The notes below the pieces were generated by a model, which was given only the letters and a program-made list of their open reading frames with translations, searched no databases and was not told the origin of the DNA. From Rubellimicrobium aerolatum (lineage in GTDB: Bacteria > Pseudomonadota > Alphaproteobacteria > Rhodobacterales > Rhodobacteraceae), in assembly GCF_017872975.1 (NCBI RefSeq), contig NZ_JAGGJP010000001.1:1-64000 (forward strand): a stretch of 64,000 bases of DNA, in the 5' to 3' direction. The position numbers and the translations under genes were made by a program. Positions 12,310 to 29,204 of this stretch are shown piece after piece (position 1 is the first letter of the stretch; each line of letters begins with the position of its first letter).

Positions 12310-12342
12310 CTGCGGTGGAGTGACTCGGGGGCGTCGTTCGGC

Positions 12343-13943: not shown

Positions 13944-13966
13944 GGGGCGGGCGAGGCGCTTACGGT

Positions 13967-14280: not shown

Positions 14281-14289
14281 TCTCCAGTT

Positions 14290-14430
14290 CCAAGGTCACG
14301 ATCTCACCGTCGTGTCCGCGAAACCGGCAGCAGGCCATGGTGCCTTTTACGGTCAGAGCGGTTGTGAGCTTCGCCACCTTCCTTCGGCAGACGTCTGCGA
14401 GACCTGAGTGGAGGGCCTCTTCGGTCTCCC
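14290..14430 (-). pseudogene. Possible remnant of a serine recombinase C-terminus
   Basis: Read on the minus strand, about 25 codons give HSGLADVCRRKVAKLTTAL, close to the coiled-coil tail of large serine recombinases (typically HP-LAE-YRRKVA-L--AL). Neither end of such a gene is present. The similarity is short and comes from memory of the family, so this stays tentative. It lies between the IS3 fragment and the LysR gene. Confidence 0.3.
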
Positions 14431-14461: not shown

Positions 14462-15385
14462 ATGCGCGAACTCACTCTCCGACAGGTCGAGGTTATCCGG
14501 GCGGTCATGATCGCCGGAACCATCCAAGGTGCCGCGACGCTGCTGGGGGTGTCGGCCCCCGGCATATCCCGCTTGATCAAGCACACCGAGGAGAGCCTGG
14601 GACTGCGGCTTTTCGAGCGCAAGGCCGGGCTCTTCGTCCCGGCGCGCGAGGCCGGGTCCATCTTCGAGATGGTGCATCAAGTCCATCGCCAGATGGAGAA
14701 CCTGAACTTGGCGCTGGGTGCCTTGTCAAAGGGGGAGGACGTCACGCTGTCCTTCGCCTGTGCCCCGTCGATCGCCCAGTTCATCGCCGCGCGGGCCGTA
14801 CGCAGCATCCGCGGCCGCTTTCCCGACCTGTTCATCGATCTCAACATCCTCAAGGTCGAGGAGGCCATGGACTACCTCCTGCTGGAGCGGGGCGAGTTCG
14901 TCATCATGTCCTCGGCGATCGACAACCCGGCGCTGTCGAACGAGCCCCTGGCCCGGGGCCGGATCGTCGCCATCGTGCCGGACGGGCACCCGCTCGCGCG
15001 GAAGGACGTCATCTCGGTCCATGACCTCGCGCGCGAGCCCTTCGTGGGGGTGGAGCCGGGCGATCCCTACGGCGCCGCGCTGGCCGCCCCCTTCCGGGAG
15101 GCCGACGTCGCGCCGCGCTACACCATGCGGGGCCGATTTGCGCAGACCGTGGTCAGCCTCGTCCGGCACGGGCTGGGTGTCGCTGTCATCGACGAGTTCT
15201 CGGTGGCCGAAATCTACATGCCGGGGATCACGCGACGACCGCTGAAGGAGGCGGCCTCGATCACGGCATGGGTCGTGACGCGCGAGGGCCGACCCTTGTC
15301 GAGCTTCGCGGACTACGCCGTGACCCGCTTCAAGAAGGAACTGATCGCGGCCACCTCCCGCGCCACATGGGATCCCACGACCTAA
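14462..15385 (+). CDS. LysR-family transcriptional regulator
   Basis: 307 residues. The N-terminal winged HTH is TLRQVEVIRAVMIAGTIQGA and LLGVSAPGISRLIKHTEE. A LysR substrate-binding domain follows from about residue 90, with VIMSSAIDNPALSNEPLARG and LVRHGLGVAVIDEF. It is read in the same direction as the 3-dehydroshikimate dehydratase gene 90 bases downstream. The gap holds an inverted repeat at 15394-15409, so this is the likely local regulator of that gene. The inducer is unknown; shikimate or dehydroshikimate would fit. Confidence 0.9.
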   Translation: MRELTLRQVEVIRAVMIAGTIQGAATLLGVSAPGISRLIKHTEESLGLRLFERKAGLFVPAREAGSIFEMVHQVHRQMENLNLALGALSKGEDVTLSFACAPSIAQFIAARAVRSIRGRFPDLFIDLNILKVEEAMDYLLLERGEFVIMSSAIDNPALSNEPLARGRIVAIVPDGHPLARKDVISVHDLAREPFVGVEPGDPYGAALAAPFREADVAPRYTMRGRFAQTVVSLVRHGLGVAVIDEFSVAEIYMPGITRRPLKEAASITAWVVTREGRPLSSFADYAVTRFKKELIAATSRATWDPTT

Positions 15386-15393
15386 CCTCGTGT

Positions 15394-15409
15394 TATGCCA
15401 ATCGGCATA
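15394..15409. promoter_or_regulatory. Candidate LysR-type operator
   Basis: TATGCCAATCGGCATA has perfect 6-base arms around a 4-base centre, 67-82 bases upstream of the dehydratase start codon. Size and place suit a LysR-type regulator, most simply the one encoded at 14462. Confidence 0.4.
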
Positions 15410-15475
15410 TCCGTATTTGTCGTTAATTCGTTCCACGGTCAGATTGGTCCCGGCCTTCAGTTCGGGAGCGCGCCC

Positions 15476-17356
15476 ATGAGGACGTCCATCGCCACCGTCT
15501 CCGTCTCGGGCGACTTCCGCGAGAAGCTGGAGGCCATCGCCGGGGCCGGGTTCGACGGCATCGAGATCTTCGAGCAGGATTTCCTGACTTTCGACGGCTC
15601 CCCCCGCGACGTGGGGCGCATGGTGCGCGACCATGGGCTCGAGATCACCCTGTTCCAGCCCTTCCGCGACTTCGAGACGCTGCCCGCTCCGCTGCGCGCT
15701 CGCGCCTTCGCCCGCGCCGAACGCAAGTTCGACTTGATGGGCGAACTCGGCACCGACCTCGTGCTCGTCTGCTCGACGGTCCACCCGGAGTCCCTGGGTG
15801 GCATCGACCGCGCCGCCGACGACTTCCGCGAACTGGGCGAAAGGGCAGCGGCGCGCGGGCTGCGCGTGGGATACGAGGCGCTGGCCTGGGGCCGACACGT
15901 CAACGACCACCGCGACGCCTGGGAGGTCGTGCGCCGCACCGACCATCCGGCCGTCGGCCTGATCCTCGACAGCTTTCACACACTGGGACGCGGCATCGAC
16001 CCCGACACCATCCGGCGCATCCCCGGCGACCGGATCGCCTTCGTCCAACTCGCCGACGCGCCCGCGATCCCGATGGACCTGCTCTACTGGTCGCGTCACT
16101 TCCGCAACATGCCCGGCGAGGGCGACCTCGACGTGACGCGCTTCATGCGGGCGGTGATGGCCACGGGCTACGCCGGCCCCCTGTCGCTCGAAATCTTCAA
16201 CGACCAGTTCCGCGCGGGCCTGCCCCGCCTCGTGGCGCAGGACGGACATCGAAGCCTCGTCCACCTCATGGACCGCGTGCGGCGCGAGGAACCGGGCCTC
16301 GCCATGGACCTTCCCGCCTTCCCGCCGCCCGCCCCGGTCGAAACGGTCGAGTTCCTCGAATTCGCCACCGCTCCCGGCGAGGCCGAGGGGATCGAGGCCC
16401 TCCTGGCCTCCCTGAGCTTCGAGAGGGCGGGCGCGCACCTGACCAAGCCCGTCACGCTCTGGCGACAGGGCGGCATCAACGTCCTCGTCAACACCGGCGT
16501 CGAGGGCTTCACCCGCAACGCCTTCGCCAGCCATGGCACGACCGTGAGCGAAGTGGGCCTCCTGGTGCCGGACGCCCATGCGGCCCTCGCTCGCGCCGAG
16601 GCGCTGGGCGCGACGCGCTTCGACGAGCGCCCGCCCGAGGGCCAGCTCGCCATTCCGGCGATCCGGGGCGTGGGCGGCAGCGTGATCCGCTTCCTCGACC
16701 GCGCGGGCGACCTGGGCCGGGTCTGGGAGACGGAGTTCCCTGACGCGGCTCCCGCCTCGGTCGGCGCGGGCCTCGTGGCGGTCGATCACCTCGGCCAGAC
16801 CATGGCCTACGACGAGATGCTGAGCTGGGCGCTCTTCTACACGTCGATCCTCGATGGCCGGAAAGCTCCCATGGTGGACGTGGCCGACCCCGACGGCCTC
16901 GTGCGGAGCCAAGCCGTCCAGTCCGGCGGGCTGCGCGTCACGCTCAACGGGACGGACGCGCGGCGGACGCTGGCGGGGCGGTTCTTCAGCGACACCTTCG
17001 GATCGGCAGTCCAGCACATCGCGCTGGCCACGGACGACATCCTCGCCACGGCGCAAGCGCTGGCTGCGCGGGGGTTCCCGGTGCTGGAGATCGGCGGCAA
17101 CTACTACGACGACGTGGAGGCGCGCTTCGGCCTCGATTCCGCGCTGACGGCACGGCTCCGGGCGGCGAACATCCTCTACGACGCCGACGGGCAGGGAGAG
17201 TTCTTCCAGTTCTACTCGGCGGCGCGGCCCGACGGCTTCTTCGTGGAGATCGTCGAGCGGCGGGGCGGATACTCGGGCTACGGCGCGCCCAACGCGCCCT
17301 TCCGCATCGCGGCCCAGAAGCGGGCGCTGCGGCCCGCCTCCATGCCGAGGGCCTGA
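15476..17356 (+). CDS. quiC1: Two-domain 3-dehydroshikimate dehydratase (QuiC1-like)
   Basis: 626 residues from the ATG at 15476 (GGGAG 7-8 bases upstream). Residues 1-270 are a TIM-barrel dehydratase domain with metal-site candidates in GYEALAWGRH (Glu), LILDSFHTLG (Asp), IAFVQLADAP (Gln) and LSLEIFND (Glu). Residues from about 290 resemble 4-hydroxyphenylpyruvate dioxygenase, with the 2-His-1-Glu set in VAVDHLGQ, VQHIALATDD and FFVEIVERRGGYSGYG. This architecture is that of QuiC1, which converts 3-dehydroshikimate to protocatechuate. The gene sits next to pcaQ and the protocatechuate operon, and opposite dehydroquinase and shikimate-dehydrogenase genes, which supports the call. The role of the second domain in such proteins is not clear. 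Confidence 0.88.
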   Translation: MRTSIATVSVSGDFREKLEAIAGAGFDGIEIFEQDFLTFDGSPRDVGRMVRDHGLEITLFQPFRDFETLPAPLRARAFARAERKFDLMGELGTDLVLVCSTVHPESLGGIDRAADDFRELGERAAARGLRVGYEALAWGRHVNDHRDAWEVVRRTDHPAVGLILDSFHTLGRGIDPDTIRRIPGDRIAFVQLADAPAIPMDLLYWSRHFRNMPGEGDLDVTRFMRAVMATGYAGPLSLEIFNDQFRAGLPRLVAQDGHRSLVHLMDRVRREEPGLAMDLPAFPPPAPVETVEFLEFATAPGEAEGIEALLASLSFERAGAHLTKPVTLWRQGGINVLVNTGVEGFTRNAFASHGTTVSEVGLLVPDAHAALARAEALGATRFDERPPEGQLAIPAIRGVGGSVIRFLDRAGDLGRVWETEFPDAAPASVGAGLVAVDHLGQTMAYDEMLSWALFYTSILDGRKAPMVDVADPDGLVRSQAVQSGGLRVTLNGTDARRTLAGRFFSDTFGSAVQHIALATDDILATAQALAARGFPVLEIGGNYYDDVEARFGLDSALTARLRAANILYDADGQGEFFQFYSAARPDGFFVEIVERRGGYSGYGAPNAPFRIAAQKRALRPASMPRA

Positions 17357-17358: not shown

Positions 17359-18255
17359 TCAGGCGGCTCGCGCCGCCTCGCGGGCGATCTCCACGAGGAG
17401 GGCCAGGGCCGCGCCTGCTTCGCCTTGCCGAAGCGTCAGGCCCACGGCCCCCGCCAGCCTTCGGGCGTCGGTCGGGATCGCCTGCAACCGCCCCGTCTCC
17501 AGTTCCTCGACCACCACCCCGCGCGAGATGAACCACACCGCGTCCGATCCCAGCAGGACGCCCCGCCCGACCGGATGCGAGACGGTCTCGACCGCCGCCC
17601 GGATCCCCGCGAGGCCCAGGCTCGCGAGGTAGTCGTCCACCGTGCGCCGGATCGCCGCGCCCTCGGGTGGCAGGACAAGCGGGACGCGCGCCAGGAGGTC
17701 GGCGGGCGGCAGGTGCGCCAGCGGATGCCCGGCCCGTGCGACCAGTTCCACCTGCTCCTCGTAGAGATGCTCGAAGGCGAGGCCCGCCATCTCGCGCGGC
17801 TCGGGCATCCGCCCGGCCAGAAGGTCGATCCGGCCGTCGCGCAGCAGGCCCACGAGGTGGCCCTGCGGCCCCGTGGCGATCGACAGAGTCGTGTCCGGCC
17901 GCATCTCACGGAACCGCAAAGCCACGCAGGGAAAGAAGCGCGTGGCCACCGTGGGCAGCACCCCCACGGACAGCTGCCCCTCGGCTTTCCCGCCCCGGAG
18001 CGCCGCCGCCCCCGCTTCCAGCGCCGCAACCCCCTCGGCGGCGTGGCGGCGGAACACCGCGCCCGCCTCGGTCAGCCGCAGGCTGCGCCCCTGCCGCAGG
18101 AACAGCGACTGGCCCAGCAGGTCCTCCAGCTCGGCCAGGGTCCGGGACAGGGCAGGCTGGGTGATGCCCTCGGCGCGGGCCACGGCCGATAGGCTCCCCT
18201 CTGCCGCGATGGCGAGGAACGCCCGCACATGGCGCAGCTTGATCGCCGGATGCAT
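17359..18255 (-). CDS. pcaQ: LysR-family regulator of protocatechuate genes, PcaQ
   Basis: 298 residues. The HTH is KLRHVRAFLAIAAEGSLSAV and EGITQPALSRTLAELE. The sensor domain follows (GQLSVGVLPTVATRFFP, GRGVLLGSDAVWFISRGVV). It diverges from pcaD, and a near-perfect PcaQ-type palindrome overlaps its own start codon. In related bacteria PcaQ activates pcaDCHGB in response to beta-carboxymuconate or beta-ketoadipate-pathway intermediates. Its stop codon is two bases from that of the dehydratase gene. Confidence 0.92.
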   Translation of the reverse strand: MHPAIKLRHVRAFLAIAAEGSLSAVARAEGITQPALSRTLAELEDLLGQSLFLRQGRSLRLTEAGAVFRRHAAEGVAALEAGAAALRGGKAEGQLSVGVLPTVATRFFPCVALRFREMRPDTTLSIATGPQGHLVGLLRDGRIDLLAGRMPEPREMAGLAFEHLYEEQVELVARAGHPLAHLPPADLLARVPLVLPPEGAAIRRTVDDYLASLGLAGIRAAVETVSHPVGRGVLLGSDAVWFISRGVVVEELETGRLQAIPTDARRLAGAVGLTLRQGEAGAALALLVEIAREAARAA

Positions 18256-18339: not shown

Positions 18340-19113
18340 ATGCAAGTTCTCGAACGCCCCTGGGGGCGGATGCACGTCCGCGTCGAAGGTGATGGGCCTC
18401 TCGTGCTCCTCGCCAATTCGCTGGGCACCGACCTGCGGCTCTGGGACGATCTCCTGCCGCTGCTTCCCCCCGGCTTGCGCGTCGCGCGCTTCGACAAGCG
18501 AGGGCACGGTCTGTCCGATCTGGGCGGAGCGGTCACGGTCGAGGACCTGGCCGACGACGCCGTTGCCCTGATCGAGTCGCAGGGCGGCCCGGCCGTGGTC
18601 ATGGGCGTCTCCATCGGCGGCATGATCGCGCAGGCGCTGGCCCTGCGGCGGCCCGACCTCGTGCGCGCGCTCGTGCTGTCCAACACGGCGGCGCGGCTGG
18701 GCACGCCCGACTCCTGGGCCGCGCGCATCGCGCAGGTGGAGGGACAGGGTCTCGCCGCCATCTCTGACGGGATCATGGAGCGCTGGTTCGCGCCCGCGTT
18801 CCGCGCGACCCCGCAACTCGCGTCCTGGCGCAACATGCTCGCGCGCACCTCGCCCGACGGCTACGTCGCCTGCTGCCGCGCGCTGGCCCGCGCCGACCTG
18901 ACCGCCGACGCGCCAGCCCTCTCGTGCCCAGTCCTGATGATCGCCGGCACTCAGGACGGCGCGAGCCCCCGCGAGGTCGTGGAGGCCACCGCCCGCCTCA
19001 TCCCGAACGCGCGTCTCGCGGTGCTGGACGCGGGCCACCTGCCCATGGCCGAGACGCCCGAGGCCTTCGCCGCCGCCGTCTCCCCTTTCCTCAAGGAGCA
19101 CGCCCATGCCTGA
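18340..19113 (+). CDS. pcaD: 3-oxoadipate enol-lactonase
   Basis: 257 residues from the ATG at 18340 (AGGGAGGAG just upstream). An alpha/beta hydrolase: NSLGTDLRLWDD oxyanion region, RFDKRGHGLS, nucleophile elbow GVSIGGM (Ser near residue 90), an Asp in AGTQDGASP and the catalytic His in DAGHLPMAE. It hydrolyses 3-oxoadipate enol-lactone to 3-oxoadipate in the cytoplasm. First gene of the pca operon; it overlaps pcaC by eight bases. Confidence 0.93.
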   Translation: MQVLERPWGRMHVRVEGDGPLVLLANSLGTDLRLWDDLLPLLPPGLRVARFDKRGHGLSDLGGAVTVEDLADDAVALIESQGGPAVVMGVSIGGMIAQALALRRPDLVRALVLSNTAARLGTPDSWAARIAQVEGQGLAAISDGIMERWFAPAFRATPQLASWRNMLARTSPDGYVACCRALARADLTADAPALSCPVLMIAGTQDGASPREVVEATARLIPNARLAVLDAGHLPMAETPEAFAAAVSPFLKEHAHA

Positions 19114-19489
19114 CCTGCGCGACGCCGGCATGGCCACCCGCCGCCGCGTCCTGGGTGACGCCCACGTGGACCGCGCCGAAGCCGCCAAGACCCCCTTCGA
19201 CTCGCCCTTCCAGGCGCTGATCGCCGACGCCGCCTGGGGCCACGTCTGGTCGCGCGGCACGATCCCCTTGCGCGAGCGGTCGATGCTGACCATCGCGCTC
19301 CTGGCGGGCCTCGGCAATGACCACGAACTCGCCATGCACATTCGCGCCACCCGCAACACCGGCGCGAGCGAGGCCGACGTGATGGAGGCTCTCCTTCACG
19401 TCGCCATCTACGCGGGCGTGCCCCGTGCCAACCACGCGATCCGAATAGCCAAGGACACGTTCGCCGCCATGGCGGAGGAGACTCGATGA
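19106..19489 (+). CDS. pcaC: 4-carboxymuconolactone decarboxylase
   Basis: 127 residues, a small all-helical AhpD-like protein. The family blocks [37 protein letters not shown] and [20 protein letters not shown] sequence (here [18 protein letters not shown]) are all present. It decarboxylates 4-carboxymuconolactone to the enol-lactone used by PcaD. The stop overlaps the pcaH start (ATGA). Confidence 0.94.
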
Positions 19490-20208
19490 AGCCCTTCGAA
19501 TACATCCCTCGCGACCGCGGGGTTCACCCGCCGGCCTACACGCCCGGCTACAAGACCTCGGTCGCGCGCAGCCCGCGCCTGCCGCTCCTGTCCTTGCAGA
19601 ACTCGCTGTCCGAGATCACGGGACCGACCTTCGGCCAAGGCGACCTCGGCCCGCTCGACAACGACCTGATCCGCAACTACGCCAAGACCGGCGACCCGGT
19701 GGGCGAACGGATCGTCGTCCACGGCCGCGTGCTTGACGAGAACGGGCGAGGGGTGCCTCACACGCTGGTGGAGGTCTGGCAGGCCAACGCCGGCGGGCGC
19801 TACCGTCACGTCAAGGACACCTACTTCGCCCCTATCGACCCCAACTTCGGCGGCTGCGGGCGGGTGCTCACGGACGAGCAGGGCTTCTACCACTTCCGCA
19901 CCATCAAGCCCGGCGCCTACCCTTGGCGCAACGGCGTCAACGATTGGCGGCCCGCGCATATCCATGTCTCGGTCTTCGGGCAGGCCTTCGTGCAGCGCCT
20001 CATCACCCAGATGTATTTCGAGGGCGACCCGCTGATCCCCCGCTGCCCGATCGCCGCCACCATTCCCGACCCGAAGGCGCTGGAGCGGCTGATCGCGCCC
20101 CTCGACCTCAACGCCGCGATCCCGCTCGACTGCCTCGCCTACAAGTTCGACATCGTGCTGCGCGGCACGCGCTCCACGCTCTTCGAGAACCGGCTGGAAG
20201 GGAACTGA
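19486..20208 (+). CDS. pcaH: Protocatechuate 3,4-dioxygenase beta subunit
   Basis: 240 residues, the iron-binding subunit. The four Fe(III) ligands are recognisable: Tyr in GGRYRHVKD, Tyr in PGAYPWRN, and both His in [20 protein letters not shown] is the family signature. With PcaG it cleaves protocatechuate between the two hydroxyls to beta-carboxy-cis,cis-muconate. It is followed after one base by pcaG. Confidence 0.96.
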
Positions 20209-20209
20209 G

Positions 20210-20836
20210 ATGCCCCAGACCCTCGACTACCTCAAGGAAAGCCCTTCCCAAACCGCCGGGCCTTACGTTCACATCGGACTCGCGCCGGGAGCGGCCGGCT
20301 TCTCGATCTTCGAGCGGGAGCTGGGTCAGGACATCGCCGGTCCCAATGCCGAGGGCGAGCGCATCCGCGTGGAGGGCGTCGTCACCGACGGCACGGGCGC
20401 GCCGGTCAAGGACGTGCTGCTGGAGGTCTGGCAGGCCGACGACGAGGGCCGCCATCCCCATCCCCGCGACCCCCGCCACGCCGAGGTGGCCGAGGGCTTC
20501 CGGGGCTGGGGCCGGATCATCCCGGACTTCGAGACCGGCCTGTGGTCTTTCGACACCGTCAAGCCCGGCCCGGTCATGGGCCGCCACGGCCGCCTCATGG
20601 CGCCGCACATCACCTTCTGGCTGGTGGCGCGGGGCATCAACATCGGCCTGAACACCCGGCTCTACTTCGGCGACGAGGAGGCCGCGAACGCCGCCGATCC
20701 CGTTCTTGGCCTGATCGAGCAGGTCCACCGCCGACGCACGCTGATCGCCACCCGCGAGGACCGGGAGGGGCGGGCCGTCTACCGCTTCGACATCCGCCTC
20801 CAGGGCGAGGGCGAAACGGTCTTCCTGGACATCTGA
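20210..20836 (+). CDS. pcaG: Protocatechuate 3,4-dioxygenase alpha subunit
   Basis: 208 residues. The start SPSQTAGPYVHIGLAP and DVLLEVWQADDEGRH are diagnostic of the alpha chain. It shares the intradiol dioxygenase beta-sandwich with PcaH but lacks the full set of iron ligands, as expected; APHITFWL replaces the PAHIH motif. It forms the alpha-beta unit with PcaH. Three bases separate it from the next gene. Confidence 0.95.
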   Translation: MPQTLDYLKESPSQTAGPYVHIGLAPGAAGFSIFERELGQDIAGPNAEGERIRVEGVVTDGTGAPVKDVLLEVWQADDEGRHPHPRDPRHAEVAEGFRGWGRIIPDFETGLWSFDTVKPGPVMGRHGRLMAPHITFWLVARGINIGLNTRLYFGDEEAANAADPVLGLIEQVHRRRTLIATREDREGRAVYRFDIRLQGEGETVFLDI

Positions 20837-20839: not shown

Positions 20840-21679
20840 ATGAGCGAGACTTCCACCCCCACGATCATCTGCGTCGCCATTACCGGCAGCCTGCCGCAAA
20901 AGTCCGACAATCCCGCTGTCCCGATCACCATCGACGAGCAGGTGGAGAGCACGCAGGCGGCCTTCGAGGCCGGCGCCACCATCGCCCACTGCCACGTGCG
21001 CGACGACGAGGGGAAGCCCACGTCCGACCCCGAGCGCTTCGCCCGCCTGAAGGAGGGCATCGAGCGGCACTGTCCGGGGATGATCGTGCAACTGTCCACC
21101 GGCGGTCGGAGCGGGGCAGGGCGCGAGCGGGGGGGCATGCTCTCCTTGCGCCCCGACATGGCGTCCCTTGCGGTGGGCTCGAACAACTTCCCCACCCGCG
21201 TCTACGAGAACCCGCCCGACCTCGTGGACTGGCTAGCCGCCGAGATGCTGGCCCACGGGGTCAAACCGGAGGTGGAGTGCTTCGACCTCAGCCACGTGTT
21301 CAAGGCCAAGGAGATGGCCGACAAGGGCCAGCTCGCGGGCACGCCTTACCTCCAGATCGTCATGGGGGTGCGGAACGCCATGCCGGCGGACAAGCCGGCC
21401 TTCGACTTCATGGCCGCCACCATCCAGCGCCTCTTCCCCGGCGCGCCCTGGTGCGCGGCGGGGATCGGGCCGGCACAGATCACGCTCAACGAGTGGAGCG
21501 TGGCGGCCGGAGGGCACGCCCGCACCGGGCTTGAGGACAACGTGCGCCTCGATCGCCACACGCTCGCCCCCTCCAACGCCGCCTTGGTGCGGCGGGTGGT
21601 GGAGATCTGCGAGCGCCACGAGCGGCCCGTCGCAAGCTGGCAGCAGGCACGCGCGATGCTGGGGCTGGGGCGGCCCTGA
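20840..21679 (+). CDS. Beta-keto acid cleavage enzyme (BKACE, DUF849 family)
   Basis: 279 residues, a Zn-dependent TIM barrel. The signatures are ICVAITGS, TIAHCHVRDDEG with the zinc His pair, IVQLSTGGRSG, GSNNFP, PEVECFDLSH and the C-terminal GGHARTGLEDN. Family members transfer a beta-keto acid's acyl part to CoA from acetyl-CoA, releasing acetoacetate. The gene is wedged between pcaG and pcaB with 1-3 base spacing, so 3-oxoadipate is the obvious candidate substrate, giving succinyl-CoA plus acetoacetate. That would replace the missing pcaIJ and pcaF. The family is certain, the substrate is inferred. Confidence 0.9.
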   Translation: MSETSTPTIICVAITGSLPQKSDNPAVPITIDEQVESTQAAFEAGATIAHCHVRDDEGKPTSDPERFARLKEGIERHCPGMIVQLSTGGRSGAGRERGGMLSLRPDMASLAVGSNNFPTRVYENPPDLVDWLAAEMLAHGVKPEVECFDLSHVFKAKEMADKGQLAGTPYLQIVMGVRNAMPADKPAFDFMAATIQRLFPGAPWCAAGIGPAQITLNEWSVAAGGHARTGLEDNVRLDRHTLAPSNAALVRRVVEICERHERPVASWQQARAMLGLGRP

Positions 21680-23001
21680 TGCTTCCCGATGCGGGCAGCC
21701 CCCTCTACGCGCAACTCCTGGGCGACACGGCAACGGCGGCGTTCCTCTCCGACCGCGCCGAGATCCGGGCCATGATCGATGTCGAGGCAGCCTTGGCCGA
21801 GGCGCAGGGCGCGCTGGGCGTGATCCCGTCCGACGCCGGGTTCGCCCTGGCCCGCGCCTGCCGCGGCCTTTCGCTCGATCCGGGCAAACTCGCCGCGCGA
21901 ACCGGCGTGGACGGCGTGCCGGTCCCCGCGCTCGTGGCCGCCCTGCGCGACGCGCTCGGGTCGCCCGAGCAGGCGGAGCATCTCCATTGGGGCGCGACCA
22001 GCCAGGACATCGTGGACACGGCCCTTGCCCTGCGCCTCCGGGGCCTCCTCGAACTCTGGGACGACCGGATCGGCGCGCTCCTCCGGGCGCTGGCCGACCT
22101 CGCCGACCGCCACGCCGACCTACCGATGGCCGCCCGCACCTACGGGCAATCCGCCGTGCCCACCAGCTTCGGCGCGGTTGCTGCCGCCTGGGGGCGGCCG
22201 CTCCTGCGCCACCGCGACCGGCTCGGGGCCGTGCGGGGCGACCTGCTGAAGGTGTCGCTGTCGGGTGCCGCGGGGACGCTCTCGGCCATGGGCGGCAAGG
22301 GTCCCGAGGTGAGGGCGGCATTGGCGGCCAGTCTGGGCCTCGCCGACCCGGGATGCTCCTGGCACGCCGAGCGCGACGGCGTCGCCGCCTTCGCCGCCTG
22401 GATGGCCGGCCTGCTGGGCAGCCTCGGCAAGATGGGCGAGGACCTCCTCCTCCTCGCGCAGTCGGATCTGGGCGAGGTCCGCATCGCCGGCGCGGGCGGC
22501 TCCTCGACCATGCCGCAGAAGCAGAATCCCGTCGGGCCCTCGGTGCTCGTGGCCTTGGCCCGCACGGGGATCGGCCTCGCCGCAATCCTCCAAGGCGCCG
22601 CTCTGCACCGCCAGCAGCGCGACGGGGCCGCCTGGTTCACCGAGTGGCTGACGTTCCCGCAGCTCTGCCTCCTCACCGGGCGGGCGCTGTCGCTATCGCT
22701 CGACCTCGCCGCGCACCTGTCTCCCGATCCCGCCGCCATGGCGGCCCATCTGGAGGCGCAGGCCGGCACCATCCATGCCGAGGCGCTCAGCTTCGCCCTC
22801 GCCGTGCGGATGCCTCGCCCCGAGGCGCAGGTCGCCATCAAGGATCTGTCGCGGGAGGCGTTGAGGACGGGCACGCCGCTGCCCGACCTGGTGCGCCAAG
22901 CCTATCCCGACCTGCCGATCCCCGCGACCGACCTAGGTCAGGCCCCAGGCGAGGCGCGGGGCTTCGCTCGTGCCGTCCGCGACAGGGCCGGCGGTCAGTA
23001 A
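21679..23001 (+). CDS. pcaB: 3-carboxy-cis,cis-muconate cycloisomerase
   Basis: 440 residues of the fumarase/aspartase superfamily. Visible blocks: HLHWGATSQDIVDTAL, ARTYGQSAVPTSFG and the superfamily signature GGSSTMPQKQNPV near residue 275. It cyclises beta-carboxymuconate to 4-carboxymuconolactone, the PcaC substrate. The start overlaps the preceding stop by one base. The end overlaps the convergent shikimate-dehydrogenase-like gene by seven bases, so the two operons meet tail to tail with no room for a separate terminator. Confidence 0.94.
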   Translation: MLPDAGSPLYAQLLGDTATAAFLSDRAEIRAMIDVEAALAEAQGALGVIPSDAGFALARACRGLSLDPGKLAARTGVDGVPVPALVAALRDALGSPEQAEHLHWGATSQDIVDTALALRLRGLLELWDDRIGALLRALADLADRHADLPMAARTYGQSAVPTSFGAVAAAWGRPLLRHRDRLGAVRGDLLKVSLSGAAGTLSAMGGKGPEVRAALAASLGLADPGCSWHAERDGVAAFAAWMAGLLGSLGKMGEDLLLLAQSDLGEVRIAGAGGSSTMPQKQNPVGPSVLVALARTGIGLAAILQGAALHRQQRDGAAWFTEWLTFPQLCLLTGRALSLSLDLAAHLSPDPAAMAAHLEAQAGTIHAEALSFALAVRMPRPEAQVAIKDLSREALRTGTPLPDLVRQAYPDLPIPATDLGQAPGEARGFARAVRDRAGGQ

Positions 23002-23828
23002 TCCAGCCGCGCCACCTCGCGCAGCTCGGCCGCGTCGGCCGTGCGGAAGCCGAAGAACTCCAAATAGGCCGGGATCATCTCGAAGAGCATGTCGCTGCCG
23101 ACCTGGATGGCGCAGCCGCGCGCCTGGGCGGCGGCCAGGAAGGGGGTGATCTCCTGCTTCATCACCACCTCGCCCACGAAGGTCGCGGGCGCGATTCGCT
23201 CCACGTCCATCGGCAGCGGGTCGCCCGCCTGCATCCCCAGCGGCGTGGCGTTCACCACGATGTCCCAGCCCGCCGGGTCGTTCGAGCCGGTGGCGATCTC
23301 CAGATCGGGATAGTGCGTCCGCAGCCGCCCGGCCAATCCTTCCACCACCTCGGGGCGCGGATCGTGCAGCCCCAGCGCCCCCGCCCCCGCCCGCGCCAGC
23401 GACGCCGCGATGGCCGAGCCGACCCCCCCCGCGCCCACCACCAGCACCCGCGCGCCCGACACCGCGCGCCCTTTCCGCAAAACGCCGCGCACGAAGCCCT
23501 CGCCGTCGAACATGTCGCCCTGCAACCGCCCATCCGGCCCCAGTCGCACCGCGTTGCACGCCCCCGCGATCCGCGCCGTGGGCGACACCTCGTCGAGCAG
23601 CGCCACCGTCGTCACCTTGTGCGGCATGGTGACGAGGGCGCCGTGGATGTTCGACAGCCGGAACGCCAGCCGCAGGAAGTCCGGGTAGTCCTCGGCCCGG
23701 ACCCCCATCGGCACCACCACCGCGTCGATGCCGTGCCTCTCGAAGTAGGGGTTGTAGATCATGGGCGCGCGGAAGGACTCGGTCGGATAGCCCAGATGCG
23801 CGATGAGCTTGGTGGTGCCCCGGATCAT
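22995..23828 (-). CDS. Shikimate/quinate dehydrogenase-like protein (AroE superfamily)
   Basis: 277 residues; AAAGGAGGCTCC precedes the ATG. The catalytic Lys in VTMPHKVT and Asp in GDMFDGEGF are kept. The substrate-side motif reads GYPTESFRAP rather than AroE's SxSxSP, so substrate preference probably differs. The nucleotide site is VVGAGGVGSAIA followed by LHDPRP. The Asp there, instead of the NRT of NADP-dependent AroE, suggests NAD use, which suits oxidation. It is the last gene of the transporter operon. Likely reactions are shikimate to 3-dehydroshikimate or quinate to 3-dehydroquinate (inference). A biosynthetic role is less likely in this place. Confidence 0.85.
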   Translation of the reverse strand: MIRGTTKLIAHLGYPTESFRAPMIYNPYFERHGIDAVVVPMGVRAEDYPDFLRLAFRLSNIHGALVTMPHKVTTVALLDEVSPTARIAGACNAVRLGPDGRLQGDMFDGEGFVRGVLRKGRAVSGARVLVVGAGGVGSAIAASLARAGAGALGLHDPRPEVVEGLAGRLRTHYPDLEIATGSNDPAGWDIVVNATPLGMQAGDPLPMDVERIAPATFVGEVVMKQEITPFLAAAQARGCAIQVGSDMLFEMIPAYLEFFGFRTADAAELREVARLDY

Positions 23829-23863
23829 GGGAGCCTCCTTTGGATGCGGGGCCGGAGGGCCGG

Positions 23864-24613
23864 TCAGTGATGCGCCAGGATCTCGCCCAGGAAGGCGCGC
23901 GTCCGCTCGTGCTTGGGGGCCTTGAAGAAGGCCTCGGGCTCGCCCTCCTCGATGATGGCCCCATCGGACATGAAGATCACCCGGTCGGCGACCTGCCGCG
24001 CGAAGCCCATCTCGTGCGTCACGCAGATCATCGTCATCCCGTCCCGCGCCAGCCCCACCATGGTGTCGAGCACCTCCTTCACCATCTCGGGGTCGAGCGC
24101 CGAGGTCGGCTCGTCGAAGAGCATGGCCTTCGGCTCCATGCAGAGCGCGCGCGCGATGGCGACCCGCTGCTGCTGCCCGCCCGAGAGCTGCGCGGGATGC
24201 TTGTCGGCCTGGTTGCCGATGCGGACCCGCTCCAGATACTTGCGGGCGGTTGCCTCGGCCTCGGAGCGCGAGACCTTCCGCACCCGCATGGGGGCCAACA
24301 TGCAGTTCTCCAGCACCGTCATGTGCGGGAACAGGTTGAACTGCTGGAACACCATCCCGACCTCGCGCCGCACCGCGTCCACGGTCTTGGGCGTGTTGTC
24401 CAGCGTGGTGCCGTCCACCTCGATCCGGCCCGAGCGGATCGTCTCCAGGTGGTTGATGCAGCGGATCAGCGTGGACTTGCCGGACCCCGACGGCCCGCAA
24501 AGCACGATCTTCTCGCCGCGCCGGACCGTCAGGTTCACGGCCTTCAGGGCATGGAACGCGCCATAGTATTTCTCGACGTTCTCCATGCGGATCAGGATGT
24601 CGTCTTGGGCCAT
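23864..24613 (-). CDS. ABC transporter ATPase, polar amino acid (PAAT) class
   Basis: 249 residues with Walker [11 protein letters not shown]-loop [12 protein letters not shown], signature LSGGQQQR, Walker [14 protein letters not shown] and switch THEMGFAR. It is the cytoplasmic motor of the importer whose permeases and binding proteins are encoded at 26152-29204 in the same operon. The nearest relatives are the GlnQ/HisP type. Its position between oxidoreductase and shikimate-dehydrogenase genes points to a carboxylic acid such as shikimate or quinate as cargo. Confidence 0.95.
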
Positions 24614-24625
24614 GGGGGCTCCTCC

Positions 24626-25660
24626 TCAGATGACCACGCGTTGGCCGATGGCGGCGGACCGCTTCACGGCGTCGATGACGTGCAATGTCCGCAGCCCCTC
24701 GCGGCCCGACACCAGCGGCGACTCCTCGCCCCGGATCACGGCGGCGAAGTGGCGCACCTGCGCGGCGAGGGGGTCCTCGAGCCGCACGCCGGGGCGGGAC
24801 AGGTCGAACGGCTCCCACCAGCTCCGCGCGCCGGGGTTGCGTCGCAGGTCCAGCGACGGCAGGGCCAGCGATCCCTCTGTGCCGCCGATCTGGTAGCAGT
24901 GCTCGCGCTCCTGCGGATAGGCCGGGTTCTCGCCGGCCGTCATCTCCCAGGACCAGGGCGCGACCGTCGCATCGCAGACCGACGCGGTGCCAAGCGCGCC
25001 GGAGGCGAACTCCAGCAGGATCGCCGCCGTCTCCTCGACCGCGAAGCCCCGGACGGCGTTCGACTCGATGGCCTGCACGGCGACGATGTCGCCCAGCAGG
25101 AACCGCAGGCAATCCACGTCATGGATCAGGTTGAGATAGACCGGCCCCGCGCCGGCCTCCCGACGCCAAGGCACGTCAAAGTAGTCGTCCGGCTTGCACA
25201 GCCAGAACATCGCGTTCGCCACAAGCGGCCGGCCGATGGCGCCCGCCTCGATCAGCGCCTTGGCCTTCCGCATCAGCGGATTGTGCCGCCGGTGATGCCC
25301 GGTCAGCAGCGGCACCCCCGCCGCCTCCGCCGCCTCCACGAGCCGCAGCCCCCCCGCGAGATCGTCGGCGAGCGGCTTCTCTATCAGCGCCGGAAGACCC
25401 GCCGCCACGCATTCCAGACCGTTCCGCACATGGACCTGGTTCGGGGTGGCGACGATTACGCCGTCGGGCCGATCCGCCACCAGCATCTCCGTCAGGGACG
25501 CGAACCACGCAACCCCATGCCGCGCCGCCGCCTCGCGACCCGCCTCCGAGGGGTCCACCACGGCGGACAGCACAGCCTCGGGAGAGGCCGCGACGTGCCC
25601 GGCGTGGCGGGCCCCGATCAGGCCCGCGCCCATCACCGCGAGGCGGACCCGACCGGTCAC
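24626..25660 (-). CDS. Gfo/Idh/MocA family oxidoreductase in the shikimate operon
   Basis: 344 residues from a GTG at 25660 that overlaps the dehydroquinase stop (GTGA), so the two are translationally coupled. The Rossmann motif is [14 protein letters not shown]. The family block is LIEKPLADD, and the catalytic-site region is [14 protein letters not shown] with Asp and His. The partner enzymes make an alicyclic hydroxy acid the likely substrate. It may be the actual quinate or shikimate dehydrogenase, with the AroE-like protein handling the other compound. This cannot be settled from sequence. Confidence 0.88.
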
Positions 25661-26097
25661 GCGCCGACCAGCGCCGCGATGCGCCGCAGCCCGAGCTGGT
25701 AGCCCTGCGTGCCCGCCCCGGCGATCACCGCATCGGCGCGCAGCGACACGTAGGAATGATGCCGGAAGGCCTCGCGCTTGTGGACCTGGGAGATATGCAC
25801 CTCCACCACCGGTCCCTCGAAGGTGTTCAGCGCATCCAGCAGCGCCACCGAGGTATGCGTCAGCGCGGCCGGGTTGATGACGATCCCGCAGGCCGCCTCG
25901 CGTGCCTCGTGGACCCAGTCCACCAACTGCCCCTCGTGGTTGCTTTGCAGCAGCCGCACCTCCAGCCCCAGTTCGGCCCCCAAGGCGGCGCAGTCCCGCT
26001 CCACGTCGGCGAGCGTCTCCGCGCCGTAGATCTCGGGCTGGCGCTTGCCCAGCAGGTTCAGGTTGGGGCCGTTCAGGATGAAGACGAGGCGGGACAT
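25657..26097 (-). CDS. aroQ: Type II 3-dehydroquinate dehydratase
   Basis: 146 residues, the normal length. Diagnostic blocks: [18 protein letters not shown] with the catalytic Tyr, [14 protein letters not shown] with the Asn, and [19 protein letters not shown] with the catalytic His and Arg. It converts 3-dehydroquinate to 3-dehydroshikimate as a dodecamer. Type II enzymes serve both biosynthesis and catabolism. Location in an import and oxidation operon argues for the catabolic role, as for QuiB/QsuC. Confidence 0.95.
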
Positions 26098-26117
26098 GGG
26101 CTCTCTCGGATTGGGAC

Positions 26118-26143
26118 GGCCCGCCCCCGCCGGGGGACGGGCC
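26118..26143 (-). terminator. Stem-loop between binding-protein and dehydroquinase genes
   Basis: The arms GGCCCGCCCCC and GGGGG-A-CGGGCC (as read on the + strand) form a very stable hairpin in the 54-base gap. Like the one at 3751, it probably protects the binding-protein message and lowers expression of downstream enzyme genes. Confidence 0.5.
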
Positions 26144-26151
26144 GAGGCCGG

Positions 26152-26979
26152 TCACTGGGCGACGGTGAAGGGCACGCCCTCGACCTCGGTCGGGAACTCC
26201 GGCGGGGTCAGCCCCAGCCACTCCTGATAGATCGCCGCGTATTCGGGCGTCGTGATGAACTCCGCGAGGAAGGCGTTCAGCTCGGTGTTCCAGTCGGCCT
26301 CGCCCAGCCGGCTCCCCGCGCCGTTGTAAAGAGCGGTCAGCGGGATCTTGTTCTCGTAGGTGCCGGGCGCCTGCGGCTCCAGGCGCTGCACATAGAACTG
26401 GTTGCCGCCCACGGCGTCCACCTGCCCCGACAGCAGCGCCTGGATCGTCGCCGCGTCGTCGTCGAAGCGCAGGATCTCGGCGTCGGCGGGGGCCATCCCG
26501 GTCAGCGCCTTGTCCTGCTGCGAGGAGTTCGGAACGCCGATCCGCAGGCCCGACAGCTCCTCGGGGCTGGTGATCGTCGTCGCGATCGGGGCCACCACCG
26601 AAAGCTGGTTGGCGGCATAGGGGACCGAGTATTGCATCGCCTGCGCCCGCTCGGCGGTCATAGCCATCGTCGCGAACAGCACGTCCACCTGATCGGTCTC
26701 CAGCGCCGGAATACGGTTGGCGACCGCCAGCGGCACGAACTCGGCCTCCACGCCCAGGTAGGCGGCGAAGGCCTGGCCCATGGCAGCGTCCAAGCCCGAC
26801 TGCACGCCCGAGGAATCGAGGAACCCCCAAGGCGGGTTGTCCCCCTGGATGCCGATGCGGATCGTGCCCTCGGCCTTGGCCTCCTCCACGGTGCGCGCCT
26901 CGGCGGCCTGCGTCGCGGCCAGGACGGCCAGCGCCGCCATCAGGCTCCGGCTGGCGCCGGTCAGTGTGAATGTGGTCAT
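26152..26979 (-). CDS. PAAT-class periplasmic binding protein, paralogue 2
   Basis: 275 residues with a signal peptide (cleavage near ...TQAAEA|RTV) and the bilobed amino-acid-type binding fold (SBP_bac_3). The Arg that usually binds the ligand carboxylate is kept (MTAERAQAMQYS). The Asp that usually binds the alpha-amino group is replaced: GQVDAVGGNQ has Asn where HisJ and GlnH have Asp. This fits a carboxylic acid lacking an alpha-amino group. About 27 bases separate it from the paralogue upstream. Confidence 0.93.
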   Translation of the reverse strand: MTTFTLTGASRSLMAALAVLAATQAAEARTVEEAKAEGTIRIGIQGDNPPWGFLDSSGVQSGLDAAMGQAFAAYLGVEAEFVPLAVANRIPALETDQVDVLFATMAMTAERAQAMQYSVPYAANQLSVVAPIATTITSPEELSGLRIGVPNSSQQDKALTGMAPADAEILRFDDDAATIQALLSGQVDAVGGNQFYVQRLEPQAPGTYENKIPLTALYNGAGSRLGEADWNTELNAFLAEFITTPEYAAIYQEWLGLTPPEFPTEVEGVPFTVAQ

Positions 26980-27006
26980 GTGTGGTCTCCTCCGGGTTGG
27001 TCGGTC

Positions 27007-27837
27007 TTATTGTTGAACGGTGAAGGGCACGCCTTCAACGGCGTCGGGATAGGCGGGCGGGTCCATTTCCAGCCAGCCGTTGTAGCTCGCCTTGTACTCC
27101 TCCGAGCCCAGATACGCCTCCAGGAAGGCGTTCAGCTCCGCGTTCCAGTCGGCCTCGCCCAGCCGCGTCGCCGCGCCTTGGTAAAGCTGGCCGATCTCGA
27201 ACTTGTTCTCGAAGGCGCCCGGCGCGGCGGCCTCGACGCGCTGCATGTAGAACTGGTTCGCGCCGACCGCCTGCACCTGCCCCGACACCAGCGCCTGGAT
27301 GTTGGCCGCGTCGTCATCGAAGCGCAGGATGTCGGTGCCCTCCGGGGCCTCGGCCGTCAGGATCGTGTCCATGGGGGCCGAGTTCGGCACCCCCACCGAC
27401 AGGCCCGCAAGGTCGGCCACGTCGTCCATCTCCGTGCCCACGGGCCCGACGACATACAGGATGTTCGACGCATAGGGCCGCGAATACTGGATCGACTGCG
27501 CGCGCTCGGGCGTCATGCCGACCGAGGCGAAGAGCACGTCCACGACCCCGGTGGTCAGCGCCGGGATGCGGTTCGCCACCGCCATGGGCACGAACTCGAC
27601 CTCGACGCCCAGGTGCTCGGCGAAGGCCCGGCCCATGTCGGCGTCGAAGCCGTCCTGGTTGCCGGTGGAATCGAGGAAGCCCCAGGGCTGGTTGTCGGCC
27701 TGGATGCCGATGCGGACGGTGCCCTCGGCCTTGGCCTCGTCCACCGACATCCCCTGCGCCAGCGCAGGGAGGGGCAGCAGGGCGAGCGCCGCCGGAAGGC
27801 CCCGCCGCAGCAGGCCGAACAGGATCGGACCGGACAT
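27007..27837 (-). CDS. PAAT-class periplasmic binding protein, paralogue 1
   Basis: 276 residues with a signal peptide (...LLPLPALA|QGMS) and the SBP_bac_3 fold. It is clearly similar to the next gene throughout (RIGIQADNQPWGFLDSTG against RIGIQGDNPPWGFLDSSG; GEADWNAELNAFLEA against GEADWNTELNAFLAE), so this is a tandem duplication. Here too the amino-group Asp is Asn (GQVQAVGANQ), while the Arg is kept (MTPERAQSIQYS). Two binding proteins with one membrane complex would widen the ligand range, for example shikimate and quinate (inference). Confidence 0.93.
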   Translation of the reverse strand: MSGPILFGLLRRGLPAALALLPLPALAQGMSVDEAKAEGTVRIGIQADNQPWGFLDSTGNQDGFDADMGRAFAEHLGVEVEFVPMAVANRIPALTTGVVDVLFASVGMTPERAQSIQYSRPYASNILYVVGPVGTEMDDVADLAGLSVGVPNSAPMDTILTAEAPEGTDILRFDDDAANIQALVSGQVQAVGANQFYMQRVEAAAPGAFENKFEIGQLYQGAATRLGEADWNAELNAFLEAYLGSEEYKASYNGWLEMDPPAYPDAVEGVPFTVQQ

Positions 27838-27867
27838 GTTTCTCTCCTCCGAGTTGGTTCTTTTTGT

Positions 27868-28524
27868 TCAGCGGACGCCCAGCGCCAGCCGCCGTTCGAT
27901 GCGCCCGCCCCAGAGCGACAGGGGCCAGCAGAGCGCGAAGTAGAGGGCCCCCACGATTCCGAACACGAGCAGGGGGCGGAAGACGCTGTTGGACACGATC
28001 TGCCCCGACCGGGTCAGCTCGATGAAGCCCACGATGGCGGCCAGCGACGTGCCCTTCAGCAGTTGCACCAGGAAGCCGATGGTCGCCGGCAGCGACAGCC
28101 GGAAGGCCTGCGGCAGCACGATGTCCCGCATCCGCGACCCGTAGTGCAGCCCCAGCGCATGGGCGGCCTCGGTCTGGCCTTTCGACACCGCCTGGATCGC
28201 GCCCCGCCAGATCTCCCCCAGGAAGGCCGAGGCATGGGCCGTCAGCGCGATGGCCACCGCCGCCCAGGGCGGGATCCGCAGCCCGAACAGCGCGAAGCCG
28301 TAGAAGAACACGAACAGTTGCAGCAGCAGCGGCGTCCCCTGGAACAAGGCGATCCAGCCGGTCGCCGTCCAGCGCAGCCAGCGCCGCTCCGCCGTCCGCG
28401 CCAGCGCCACGCCGAGGCCGAAGGGGATGCCGCCGCCAAAGCCGATGGCCGCCAGGATCAGCGTCCACATCAGCCCCTTGAGGATGAAGAGCAGCTCGTC
28501 CGGGCCGAGGGTCGGGGTTTCCAT
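27868..28524 (-). CDS. PAAT-class ABC permease subunit
   Basis: 218 residues, with hydrophobic segments around residues 15-38, 57-82, 88-110, 160-175 and 185-208. The ATPase-contact (EAA) loop is GQTEAAHALGLHYGSRMRDI followed by VLPQAFR. FQGTPLLLQLFVFFYG is a typical PAAT permease block. It pairs with the permease encoded just upstream. Confidence 0.94.
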   Translation of the reverse strand: METPTLGPDELLFILKGLMWTLILAAIGFGGGIPFGLGVALARTAERRWLRWTATGWIALFQGTPLLLQLFVFFYGFALFGLRIPPWAAVAIALTAHASAFLGEIWRGAIQAVSKGQTEAAHALGLHYGSRMRDIVLPQAFRLSLPATIGFLVQLLKGTSLAAIVGFIELTRSGQIVSNSVFRPLLVFGIVGALYFALCWPLSLWGGRIERRLALGVR

Positions 28525-28535
28525 GGCCGGGCTCC

Positions 28536-29204
28536 TCAGCGGGTCGGGTAGGCGAAGGCGAGGCGCGCGACGCCCGCGAACAGCACCATCATCAGCCAGG
28601 CCACCATCAGGTAGATGCCGGTGATGAGGAAGTAGACCTCGAAGCTCTGGAACGTGTCGCCGTCGATCCGCCGCGCCACCGAGGTCAGCTCATAGGCCGC
28701 GATCGACGTGGCGATGGACGTGGTCAGCGTCAGCATCACGAACTGCGAGGCGAGGCTCGGGAACACGGCGCGCAGCGCGGGCTTGAGGATGATGAGCCGG
28801 AACACCTCGCCCGGATGCAGCCCCAGCGCGAGCCCCGCCTCGGTCTGCCCGCGCGGGATGCTCTCGACGCCGCCCCGGATGATCTCGATGGCGTAGGCCC
28901 CGCCGTTCAGTCCCAACGCCAGGATCGCCGTCACCGTCGGGTTCAGCCGGATGCCGGCCAGCGGCAGGGCGAAGAAGATGAAGAATATCTGCACGAGGAA
29001 CGGCGTGTTGCGGATCAGCTCCACGAAGGCGATCACCACCGCCCGCCCGAAGGCGTTGCCCGACCGGCGCACCGCCACGCCCAGCACGCCGATGACCAGC
29101 GCCAGCGCCATGCCGCCCAGCGCGAGGCCAATGGTGCCCAATGTGCCCCAGACCAGTTCGGGCCAGCGCGCCAGGACGACGCCGAAATCCAGATCAACGC
29201 TCAC
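28536..29204 (-). CDS. PAAT-class ABC permease subunit, first gene of the operon
   Basis: 222 residues. The EAA loop is GQTEAGLALGLHPGEVFRLI, and LIRNTPFLVQIFFIFFALP is the family block. The two different permeases imply a heterodimeric channel, as in HisQM. It is the first gene of the eight-gene operon running down to 22995. The promoter should lie within 29205-29590, where I see no clear consensus. Confidence 0.93.
   Translation of the reverse strand: MSVDLDFGVVLARWPELVWGTLGTIGLALGGMALALVIGVLGVAVRRSGNAFGRAVVIAFVELIRNTPFLVQIFFIFFALPLAGIRLNPTVTAILALGLNGGAYAIEIIRGGVESIPRGQTEAGLALGLHPGEVFRLIILKPALRAVFPSLASQFVMLTLTTSIATSIAAYELTSVARRIDGDTFQSFEVYFLITGIYLMVAWLMMVLFAGVARLAFAYPTR

Follow-up and report, generated by a model that had tools for sequence, protein, structure and literature searches.

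What does a transporter of the polar amino acid class carry when its genes are interleaved with those of hydroaromatic acid catabolism? The question is raised by an operon in a 64,000-nucleotide stretch of Rubellimicrobium aerolatum DNA (contig NZ_JAGGJP010000001.1, positions 1 to 64,000; hereafter the window). On the minus strand, positions 22995-29204 encode an ATP-binding cassette (ABC) transporter with two substrate-binding proteins (SBP1 and SBP2), together with a type II dehydroquinase (AroQ), an oxidoreductase of the Gfo/Idh/MocA family and an AroE-like dehydrogenase. A first-pass annotation of the window had proposed that the importer probably serves shikimate or quinate. Our analysis supports that proposal on four lines of evidence: a conserved gene neighbourhood, control loci that lack it, co-variation of a pocket residue with AroQ, and the exchange of transporter types beside the same enzymes. 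From these lines, all read from sequence, we infer that the cargo is a C7 hydroaromatic acid. We favor, at a probability of roughly 0.78, a complete importer of the polar amino acid (PAAT) class in which both binding proteins have switched specificity from amino acids to such acids, shikimate and/or quinate. The eight genes, in order of transcription, are as follows.

28536..29204, minus strand: PAAT-class ABC permease 1, GTG start (PF00528 56.2 bits; TIGR01726 92.8 bits, cut-off 42.2)
27868..28524, minus strand: PAAT-class ABC permease 2 (PF00528 62.2 bits; TIGR01726 95.6 bits, cut-off 42.2)
27007..27837, minus strand: SBP1, periplasmic binding protein, with Asn194, Gly107, Arg112 and Arg90 (PF00497 95.7 bits, cut-off 26.4)
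26152..26979, minus strand: SBP2, second binding protein (PF00497 98.2 bits, cut-off 26.4)
25657..26097, minus strand: AroQ, type II 3-dehydroquinate dehydratase (NF003806 226.7 bits, cut-off 171)
24626..25633, minus strand: Gfo/Idh/MocA oxidoreductase adjoining AroQ (PF01408, PF22725 and PF02894, all over cut-off)
23864..24613, minus strand: ABC ATPase, GlnQ-like (PF00005 139.2 bits; GlnQ model 317.2 bits, below cut-off 379)
22995..23828, minus strand: AroE-like dehydrogenase of a separate subclass, AroE_w (PF08501 58.8 bits, cut-off 27)

An open reading frame check placed these genes at exactly the coordinates first proposed, with intergenic gaps of 11-54 bases, and domain searches agreed with the proposed gene set for all eight. 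The sequence GGAG stands directly upstream of six of the eight starts, those of AroQ and Gfo/Idh being the exceptions. Assignment to the polar amino acid class likewise held: the operon has family-3 binding proteins (PF00497), two permeases with the HEQRo domain (TIGR01726) and an ATPase of the GlnQ/HisP type (PF00005), for which GlnQ is the best named model, though the score is under that model's cut-off. SBP1 carries a signal peptide, judged by eye, and is 60% identical to SBP2. No protein of the eight matched a major facilitator superfamily (MFS) family in Pfam or NCBIfam; a separate MFS gene lies at 32868-34178 (best model TIGR00898, 244 bits against a cut-off of 550.75). Open frames on the plus strand at 23840-25702 and 25756-28551 were set aside as antisense by-products of high G+C.

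Genes that accompany the binding proteins

We scanned one genome per species across 84,980 species and obtained 281 confirmed relatives of the binding proteins, the best 80 of which define the 79 loci described here. Neighbouring genes were called at thresholds of E 1e-8 and 50 bits, and the filtered tally drops Gfo/Idh matches below 50% identity, ATPase matches below 60%, and PcaH and AroQ matches below 45%. An AroE-family gene lies near the binding protein in 76 of the 79 loci, and in 64 of 64 when the locus is at least 20 kb long; the three loci lacking one (5.8, 4.2 and 14.2 kb) are on short or cut contigs. AroQ is found in 58 loci, and so is a dehydroshikimate dehydratase, which is QuiC-like in 52 and of a short TIM-barrel type in 12, some loci having both. 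PcaH is present in 31 loci and Gfo/Idh in 27. In a separate list of records (best 40 of 1531), relatives of the binding proteins with about 52-58% identity occur on rhizobial plasmids, and the four contexts taken from that list all have a shikimate dehydrogenase and AroQ beside the ABC genes.

The control set consisted of 40 loci of other PAAT binding proteins from the window genome and its relatives, tallied with the same limits minus that for the ATPase, and AroE, AroQ, QuiC, Gfo/Idh and pca genes were found in none of them (0/40). We chose these controls by hand among the higher entries of the list. Nine cover less than 19 kb, the window's own genome supplied four, and most belong to the window's genus and family, whereas the 79 loci mostly represent other lineages.

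Two features of this tally count against a hydroaromatic cargo. Most of the loci come from Rhizobiaceae, Bradyrhizobium, Paracoccus and Aureimonas, which makes them mutually related and non-independent, and AroQ is absent near 21 of the 79 binding proteins. The tally also bears on whether the importer takes up a neighbouring compound of the route instead, namely protocatechuate, or one of the acids 3-dehydroshikimate and 3-dehydroquinate formed in the periplasm. A QuiC gene and pca genes do lie alongside the operon, as such a cargo would lead one to expect, but PcaH is near only 31 of the binding proteins while AroE is near 76, and a dedicated dehydrogenase would be useless for acids that are already oxidised. 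We therefore regard this alternative as unlikely.

The QuiC-like count includes the matches of a gene at L009:8789-10687, for which the label 'BKACE_9' was rejected; the protein is QuiC-like (NF042435, 628.3 bits). Record CP021373 annotates the same gene as a 3-keto-5-aminohexanoate cleavage protein. None of 40 relatives carries the binding protein with an E value of 1e-60 or below, which makes the distribution of the operon in this lineage patchy.

The ligand pocket and its co-variation with AroQ

The first-pass annotation had pointed to Asn in place of Asp in both binding proteins (GGNQ, GANQ), with the carboxylate-binding Arg kept. An alignment of 94 SBPs from the 79 loci (each above 100 bits, near-identical sequences kept) with the window's two confirmed this pattern for the whole family. 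The Asp site, which we take from HisJ and LAO structures to be the holder of the amino group, is Asn in all 96 sequences; it is Asn194 of SBP1, in GAN-Q, and the matching site of SBP2 lies in GGN-Q. A second site, residue 107 in the first lobe, is Ser or Thr in amino-acid SBPs, where it presumably bridges the amino and carboxyl groups; here it is Gly in 61 of 96 and Ala in 35 of 96 (Gly in SBP1, Ala in SBP2). Five residues further on, Arg112, the presumed holder of the carboxylate, is kept in 96 of 96. Of the three marks of an amino-acid-specific PAAT binding protein, the family thus lacks the Asp and the Ser/Thr and retains the Arg. Gln46, Asp48, Asn49, Asn89 and Arg90 are also invariant (96/96). 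We aligned four other PAAT SBPs from the window genome, in which six other PF00497 matches exist: all four have Asp at the Asp site, carry Ser, Thr, Asn and Thr at residue 107, and differ at all five of the invariant positions. The family's polar pocket would suit a polyhydroxy acid.

Profile searches then delimited the family within 385 genomes drawn from the class and 398 drawn from the phylum. Family members (above 420 bits) occur in 2 of the 385 and 5 of the 398, counting the window genome in both, and sister SBPs score about 207-333 bits. We examined 18 of the 25 places found outside the window genome, from 17 genomes, the others being two in G379, four in G301 and one in G441. All five family-member loci among the 18 have both AroE and AroQ. 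Two of the 13 sister loci (L200 and L201) keep Asn194; both have AroQ, Gfo/Idh (38-42%) and dehydratase-like matches, and AroE was seen in neither. The remaining 11 have Ser or Ala at site 194 and AroQ in none. Across the 18 loci, AroQ is therefore present with 7 of 7 SBPs that have Asn194 and with 0 of 11 that have another residue. One sister PAAT operon, L203, adjoins a gene whose product resembles 2-dehydro-3-deoxygluconokinase (244.1 bits against a cut-off of 400), together with a gene for a hydroxyacid dehydrogenase. L203 is a possible sugar-acid importer, and its neighbours hint that the wider SBP clade carries sugar acids.

The residue changes cannot carry the argument by themselves. 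Two nopaline-binding sequences (5ot8 and 4pp0), whose ligand we take to be an opine, both have Ser at the Asp site, and 4pp0 has Gly at position 107. Because this binder too lacks the Asp, loss of the Asp alone is no evidence for a ligand without an amino group; the first-pass annotation had read it as such, and the weight of that argument now rests on context. On the same precedent we rejected the residue changes as sufficient proof of ligand class, and because both changes occur in an opine binder we lowered our confidence in re-specialisation to hydroaromatic acids from 0.80 to 0.78.

Several further observations pull in the same direction. Asp48, Asn89 and Arg90 recur in the L-cysteine receptor 2yjp, the Asn89-Arg90 pair is found in most sister SBPs as well, and an AroE-like gene (38%) accompanies a sister SBP with Ala at site 194 (L205). 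The closest PDB sequences and folds are amino-acid SBPs and their ancestors, and the pocket roles given above were assigned from alignment rather than from structure coordinates. For the AlphaFold2 model of SBP1 (mean pLDDT 91.0), the best Foldseek matches in the PDB either bind arginine, ornithine, cysteine, glutamine, tryptophan or glutamate or are reconstructed ancestors; the fold alone is therefore uninformative on the ligand. A rival reading is an ordinary amino-acid or opine-like importer that shares a transcript with catabolic genes by chance. In its favour, the components are PAAT throughout, the ligands of the nearest solved structures are arginine, ornithine, glutamine, cysteine and similar compounds, and an opine SBP likewise does without the Asp, one of its two sequences also having Gly in place of Ser/Thr. 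Chance, though, would have to account both for an AroE-family gene in 76 of 79 loci against none of the 40 control PAAT loci, and for an Asn that tracks AroQ, 7 of 7 against 0 of 11. We consider this explanation very unlikely.

The two binding proteins have separate histories. In a tree, SBP1 groups with the first-copy SBPs of Paracoccus and with those of Aureimonas (support 0.999) and SBP2 branches outside this group; the second-copy Paracoccus SBPs form other branches, and the Agrobacterium SBP pairs arose separately. As two copies have been retained in several lineages, SBP1 and SBP2 probably differ in ligand preference.

Dehydrogenases, dehydroquinase and the route to protocatechuate

The first-pass annotation described the operon as facing a dehydroshikimate dehydratase and the pca operon, and this arrangement is correct: the pca genes are convergent on the plus strand, pcaB and the AroE-like gene meet tail to tail with a 7-base overlap, and the QuiC-like dehydratase gene lies farther left. 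The neighbouring genes are listed below.

14462..15385, plus strand: LysR-family regulator adjoining the QuiC-like gene (NF008239 144.9 bits, below cut-off 288)
15395..17356, plus strand: QuiC-like 3-dehydroshikimate dehydratase, TIM barrel plus HPPD-like half (NF042435 645.9 bits, below cut-off 1200)
17359..18255, minus strand: PcaQ-like LysR regulator (TIGR02424 298.9 bits, just below cut-off 303.8)
18340..20836, plus strand: pcaD, pcaC, pcaH and pcaG (TIGR02427 280.5, TIGR02425 181.8, TIGR02422 365.4 and TIGR02423 249.0 bits, all over cut-off)
20840..21679, plus strand: BKACE-family 3-oxoadipate:acetyl-CoA acetyltransferase (NF053568 481 bits, cut-off 350)
21679..23001, plus strand: pcaB-like cycloisomerase (TIGR02426 339.4 bits, just below cut-off 355.75)

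A catabolic pathway can be traced through these genes. Dehydroquinase and dehydroshikimate dehydratase are both present, AroQ scoring over its cut-off and the QuiC-like protein reaching 645.9 of 1200 bits, with its residues 28-648 of 653 aligned to positions 1-630 of the 635 in the model. Protocatechuate 3,4-dioxygenase and the lower pathway follow, with PcaH, PcaG, PcaC, PcaD and BKACE over their cut-offs; BKACE perhaps performs the last step in place of PcaIJ/PcaF. The gene set would thus provide a route from dehydroquinate or dehydroshikimate through protocatechuate to central metabolism. Farther left in the window we noted short open reading frames at about 11500-14300, left of the LysR gene, that resemble transposase remnants by eye, and an inositol-like cluster at 2757-8283, in which a rhizopine-type SBP scores 178.2 bits against a cut-off of 420 and iolG scores 411 against 355.

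In the mechanism that we propose, SBP1 and SBP2 would capture the acid in the periplasm, its carboxylate held by Arg112, perhaps with Arg90, and its hydroxyls by Gln46, Asp48, Asn49, Asn89 and Asn194. Passage into the cell would then fall to both permeases, driven by the GlnQ-like ATPase. Shikimate would be oxidised to 3-dehydroshikimate by the AroE-like enzyme. For quinate, oxidation to 3-dehydroquinate, perhaps carried out by the Gfo/Idh protein, would be followed by dehydration by AroQ. QuiC would form protocatechuate, PcaHGBCD would open its ring, and BKACE would split 3-oxoadipate.

The operon AroQ is the only dehydroquinase found in the window genome (one PF01220 match, no PF01487 match), which is 95.6% complete, a level at which a second copy could be missing. 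It may therefore serve aromatic amino-acid synthesis as well as catabolism. An AroQ tree places it among the AroQ proteins of its genus, next to the copies from Paracoccus operons. We also considered an AroQ near accB as a lost housekeeping copy; the accB locus of the window genome has no AroQ match, and among the relatives' AroQ loci tested only L151, from another family, matched accB, so the comparison does not bear on this idea.

The Gfo/Idh protein scores below every named enzyme model listed, the best being iolG at 122.5 of 355 bits, and of the 27 loci with a Gfo/Idh gene, 24 have it directly adjoining AroQ. The same AroQ-Gfo/Idh pair occurs without ABC genes in Paroceanicella, where no AroE or QuiC was seen in the region, and in Marinovum. 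We propose, from this pairing, that the enzyme is a quinate or related cyclitol-acid dehydrogenase. The pairing also recalls the orphan QutH of Aspergillus quinate clusters: PMC12610400 reports Gfo/Idh/MocA domains in QutH, a protein of unknown function, and an induction that amounts to 6-fold with quinic acid and to 245-fold when the repressor is mutated.

The AroE-like protein of the window is 73% identical to the copy at a plasmid locus (L010) and only 25-29% identical to other AroEs beside the same transporter. Two subclasses account for most of the 79 loci, PRK12549-like in 60 and the window type in 16. Two partner AroEs that we tested are PRK12549-type shikimate dehydrogenases (444 and 433.4 bits, cut-off 235) that reach 264.6 and 293.6 bits with the quinate/shikimate dehydrogenase model, against a cut-off of 515; a third, from Bradyrhizobium, is a standard aroE found alongside a PRK12549-type gene. 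The dehydrogenase has thus been replaced beside a constant transporter, which is what a shared substrate predicts.

The substrate of the window's own AroE-like protein is less certain. The protein is under the cut-off of every aroE-type NCBIfam model (25 of 28 families listed). It keeps Lys71, Asn92 and Asp108, as do the 21 aligned members of its type, in an atypical pocket: all 21, the window's included, have Phe19 and Leu65 where AroE has the Ser and Asn that we assume hold shikimate. Its substrate may therefore differ from shikimate. The best PDB match is 4k28, and the third is a 5-ketofructose reductase. Nor is the AroE-like gene confined to the SBP family, since a 43% identical copy sits on a Paracoccus denitrificans plasmid in another PAAT operon (L098) with dihydrodipicolinate-synthase-family and aldehyde dehydrogenase genes, adjoining an altronate dehydratase family gene. 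On pSymA of Sinorhizobium meliloti an AroE-like gene (32%) lies beside branched-chain-type ABC genes; AroQ and QuiC matches were found in neither this region nor that of P. denitrificans.

These observations raise the possibility that the transporter imports another cyclitol or sugar acid, on which the Gfo/Idh and atypical AroE-like enzymes act. The presence of inositol dehydrogenases among Gfo/Idh proteins, the sister operon L203 and the P. denitrificans operon all suit such a cargo. So do the three loci in which Gfo/Idh does not adjoin AroQ but lies between the SBP and AroE-like genes (L080, L081 and L091); here no AroQ or dehydratase was seen, two of the loci being on contigs of 5-6 kb. However, these loci also contain AroQ and QuiC, which pins the pathway to dehydroquinate and dehydroshikimate, and the annotated relatives tested use AroE-type enzymes that score over their model cut-offs. 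We judge a different cyclitol or sugar acid to be improbable and retain shikimate and/or quinate as the likely cargo.

The same enzymes with other carriers

A last line of evidence comes from the same enzymes in the company of other transporters. We searched sequence records for the window-type AroE, examining five contexts among the best 40 of 458 records and, in a further search, three among the best 40 of 1517. In Methylobacterium nodulans the window-type AroE (74%) is preceded by TIM-barrel dehydratase-like and ShiA-like MFS genes, with AroQ pieces following, and in Paraburkholderia it (69%) directly follows a ShiA-like MFS gene. The two MFS proteins score 311.0 and 255.9 bits against the shikimate-transporter cut-off of 538, and 389 and 349.1 bits with TIGR00883 (cut-off 443.45). 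The Paraburkholderia region weakens the argument somewhat, having neither AroQ nor QuiC within 8 kb. In a Klebsiella record the window-type AroE (63%) comes after an MFS gene of another type and QuiC-like pieces. The Klebsiella record L094 (CP125156.1), 5.37 Mb long, is labelled a plasmid, carries pykF and resembles a chromosome.

Transporters of the TRAP type appear in the same position. On Marinovum plasmid pMaD4, a TRAP transporter accompanies the window-type AroE (70%), AroQ (72%), Gfo/Idh (58.5%) and QuiC (62.5%, measured against the QuiC-like query). Nearby there is also a transporter of the tripartite tricarboxylate type. On S. meliloti pSymB, an AroE of the common subclass (57%) directly follows a TRAP binding-protein gene, which we equate with SMb20036 by position and type only; the Marinovum TRAP binding protein is 29% identical to it. 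According to PMC3454389, the AroE gene SMb20037 adjoins SMb20034-20036, and the TRAP binding protein SMb20036 has a Kd of 5.9 nM for quinate and of about 0.1 mM for shikimate, the latter with an error larger than the value. The first-pass annotation had described known uptake of these acids as mostly by MFS carriers. TRAP uptake is known as well, as the quinate binding of SMb20036 shows (PMC3454389).

Our literature search, made over titles and the starts of abstracts of open PMC papers, a scope that leaves most subscription papers outside, found among the papers listed none on shikimate or quinate import by an ABC system, and we met no published ligand of this SBP family. In a screen of Rhodopseudomonas SBPs the ligand library included quinic and shikimic acid, and the passages of PMC3223731 consulted name no binder for them. 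More speculatively, and we hold this as doubtful, the operon could encode the first ABC importer for hydroaromatic acids, its two SBPs of differing preference feeding the AroE-like enzyme with shikimate and the Gfo/Idh-AroQ pair with quinate. Gfo/Idh would in that event add to the dehydrogenases of quinate (or a quinate isomer) a third kind, unrelated to the others, and might explain QutH.

If a hydroaromatic cargo is correct, an ABC system is the way in for quinate and shikimate, two acids common in plants, in many alphaproteobacteria of soils and plants. The permeases and ATPases of such systems are annotated as amino-acid transport genes in the annotated records that we examined, and the family's simple signature (Q-x-D-N early in the protein, G-x-N in its second lobe) would allow this annotation to be corrected across rhizobia, agrobacteria and Paracoccus. 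The overlap of enzyme sets with ABC, MFS and TRAP carriers would mean that the door has been swapped and the pathway kept. The AroQ-Gfo/Idh pair becomes a testable candidate for an unknown enzyme step, possibly also for that of the fungal QutH.

Quinate-shikimate catabolic clusters of the qsu, qui and qut kinds, among them that of A. niger (PMC12610400), share with the window a dehydroquinase, a dehydroshikimate dehydratase and the protocatechuate route; their dehydrogenase has putative counterparts here. The window operon differs from them in its ABC uptake genes and in a Gfo/Idh gene paired with AroQ. The TRAP system SMb20034-20036 of S. meliloti is likewise a quinate system, and its SBP gene lies beside an AroE of a subclass (57%) shared with the ABC loci (PMC3454389), but TRAP carriers are a different protein family from the ABC system of the window. 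ShiA-type MFS carriers (TIGR00883/NF007414; R. leguminosarum RL4709, PMC3333776) are linked to the window by the ShiA-like genes beside window-type AroE; unlike the ABC system, they are single-protein symporters with no binding protein. Closest in machinery are the PAAT/HAAT importers of the HisJQMP, LAO and GlnHPQ type, which have the same HEQRo permeases, family-3 SBPs, GlnQ-like ATPase and SBP fold. The window system departs from these in that Asn and Gly/Ala replace the amino-group Asp and the Ser/Thr (96/96), and in its catabolic partners from the quinate/shikimate route. PAAT machinery and the pathway are each known; their combination is what our search of open PMC papers did not bring to light.

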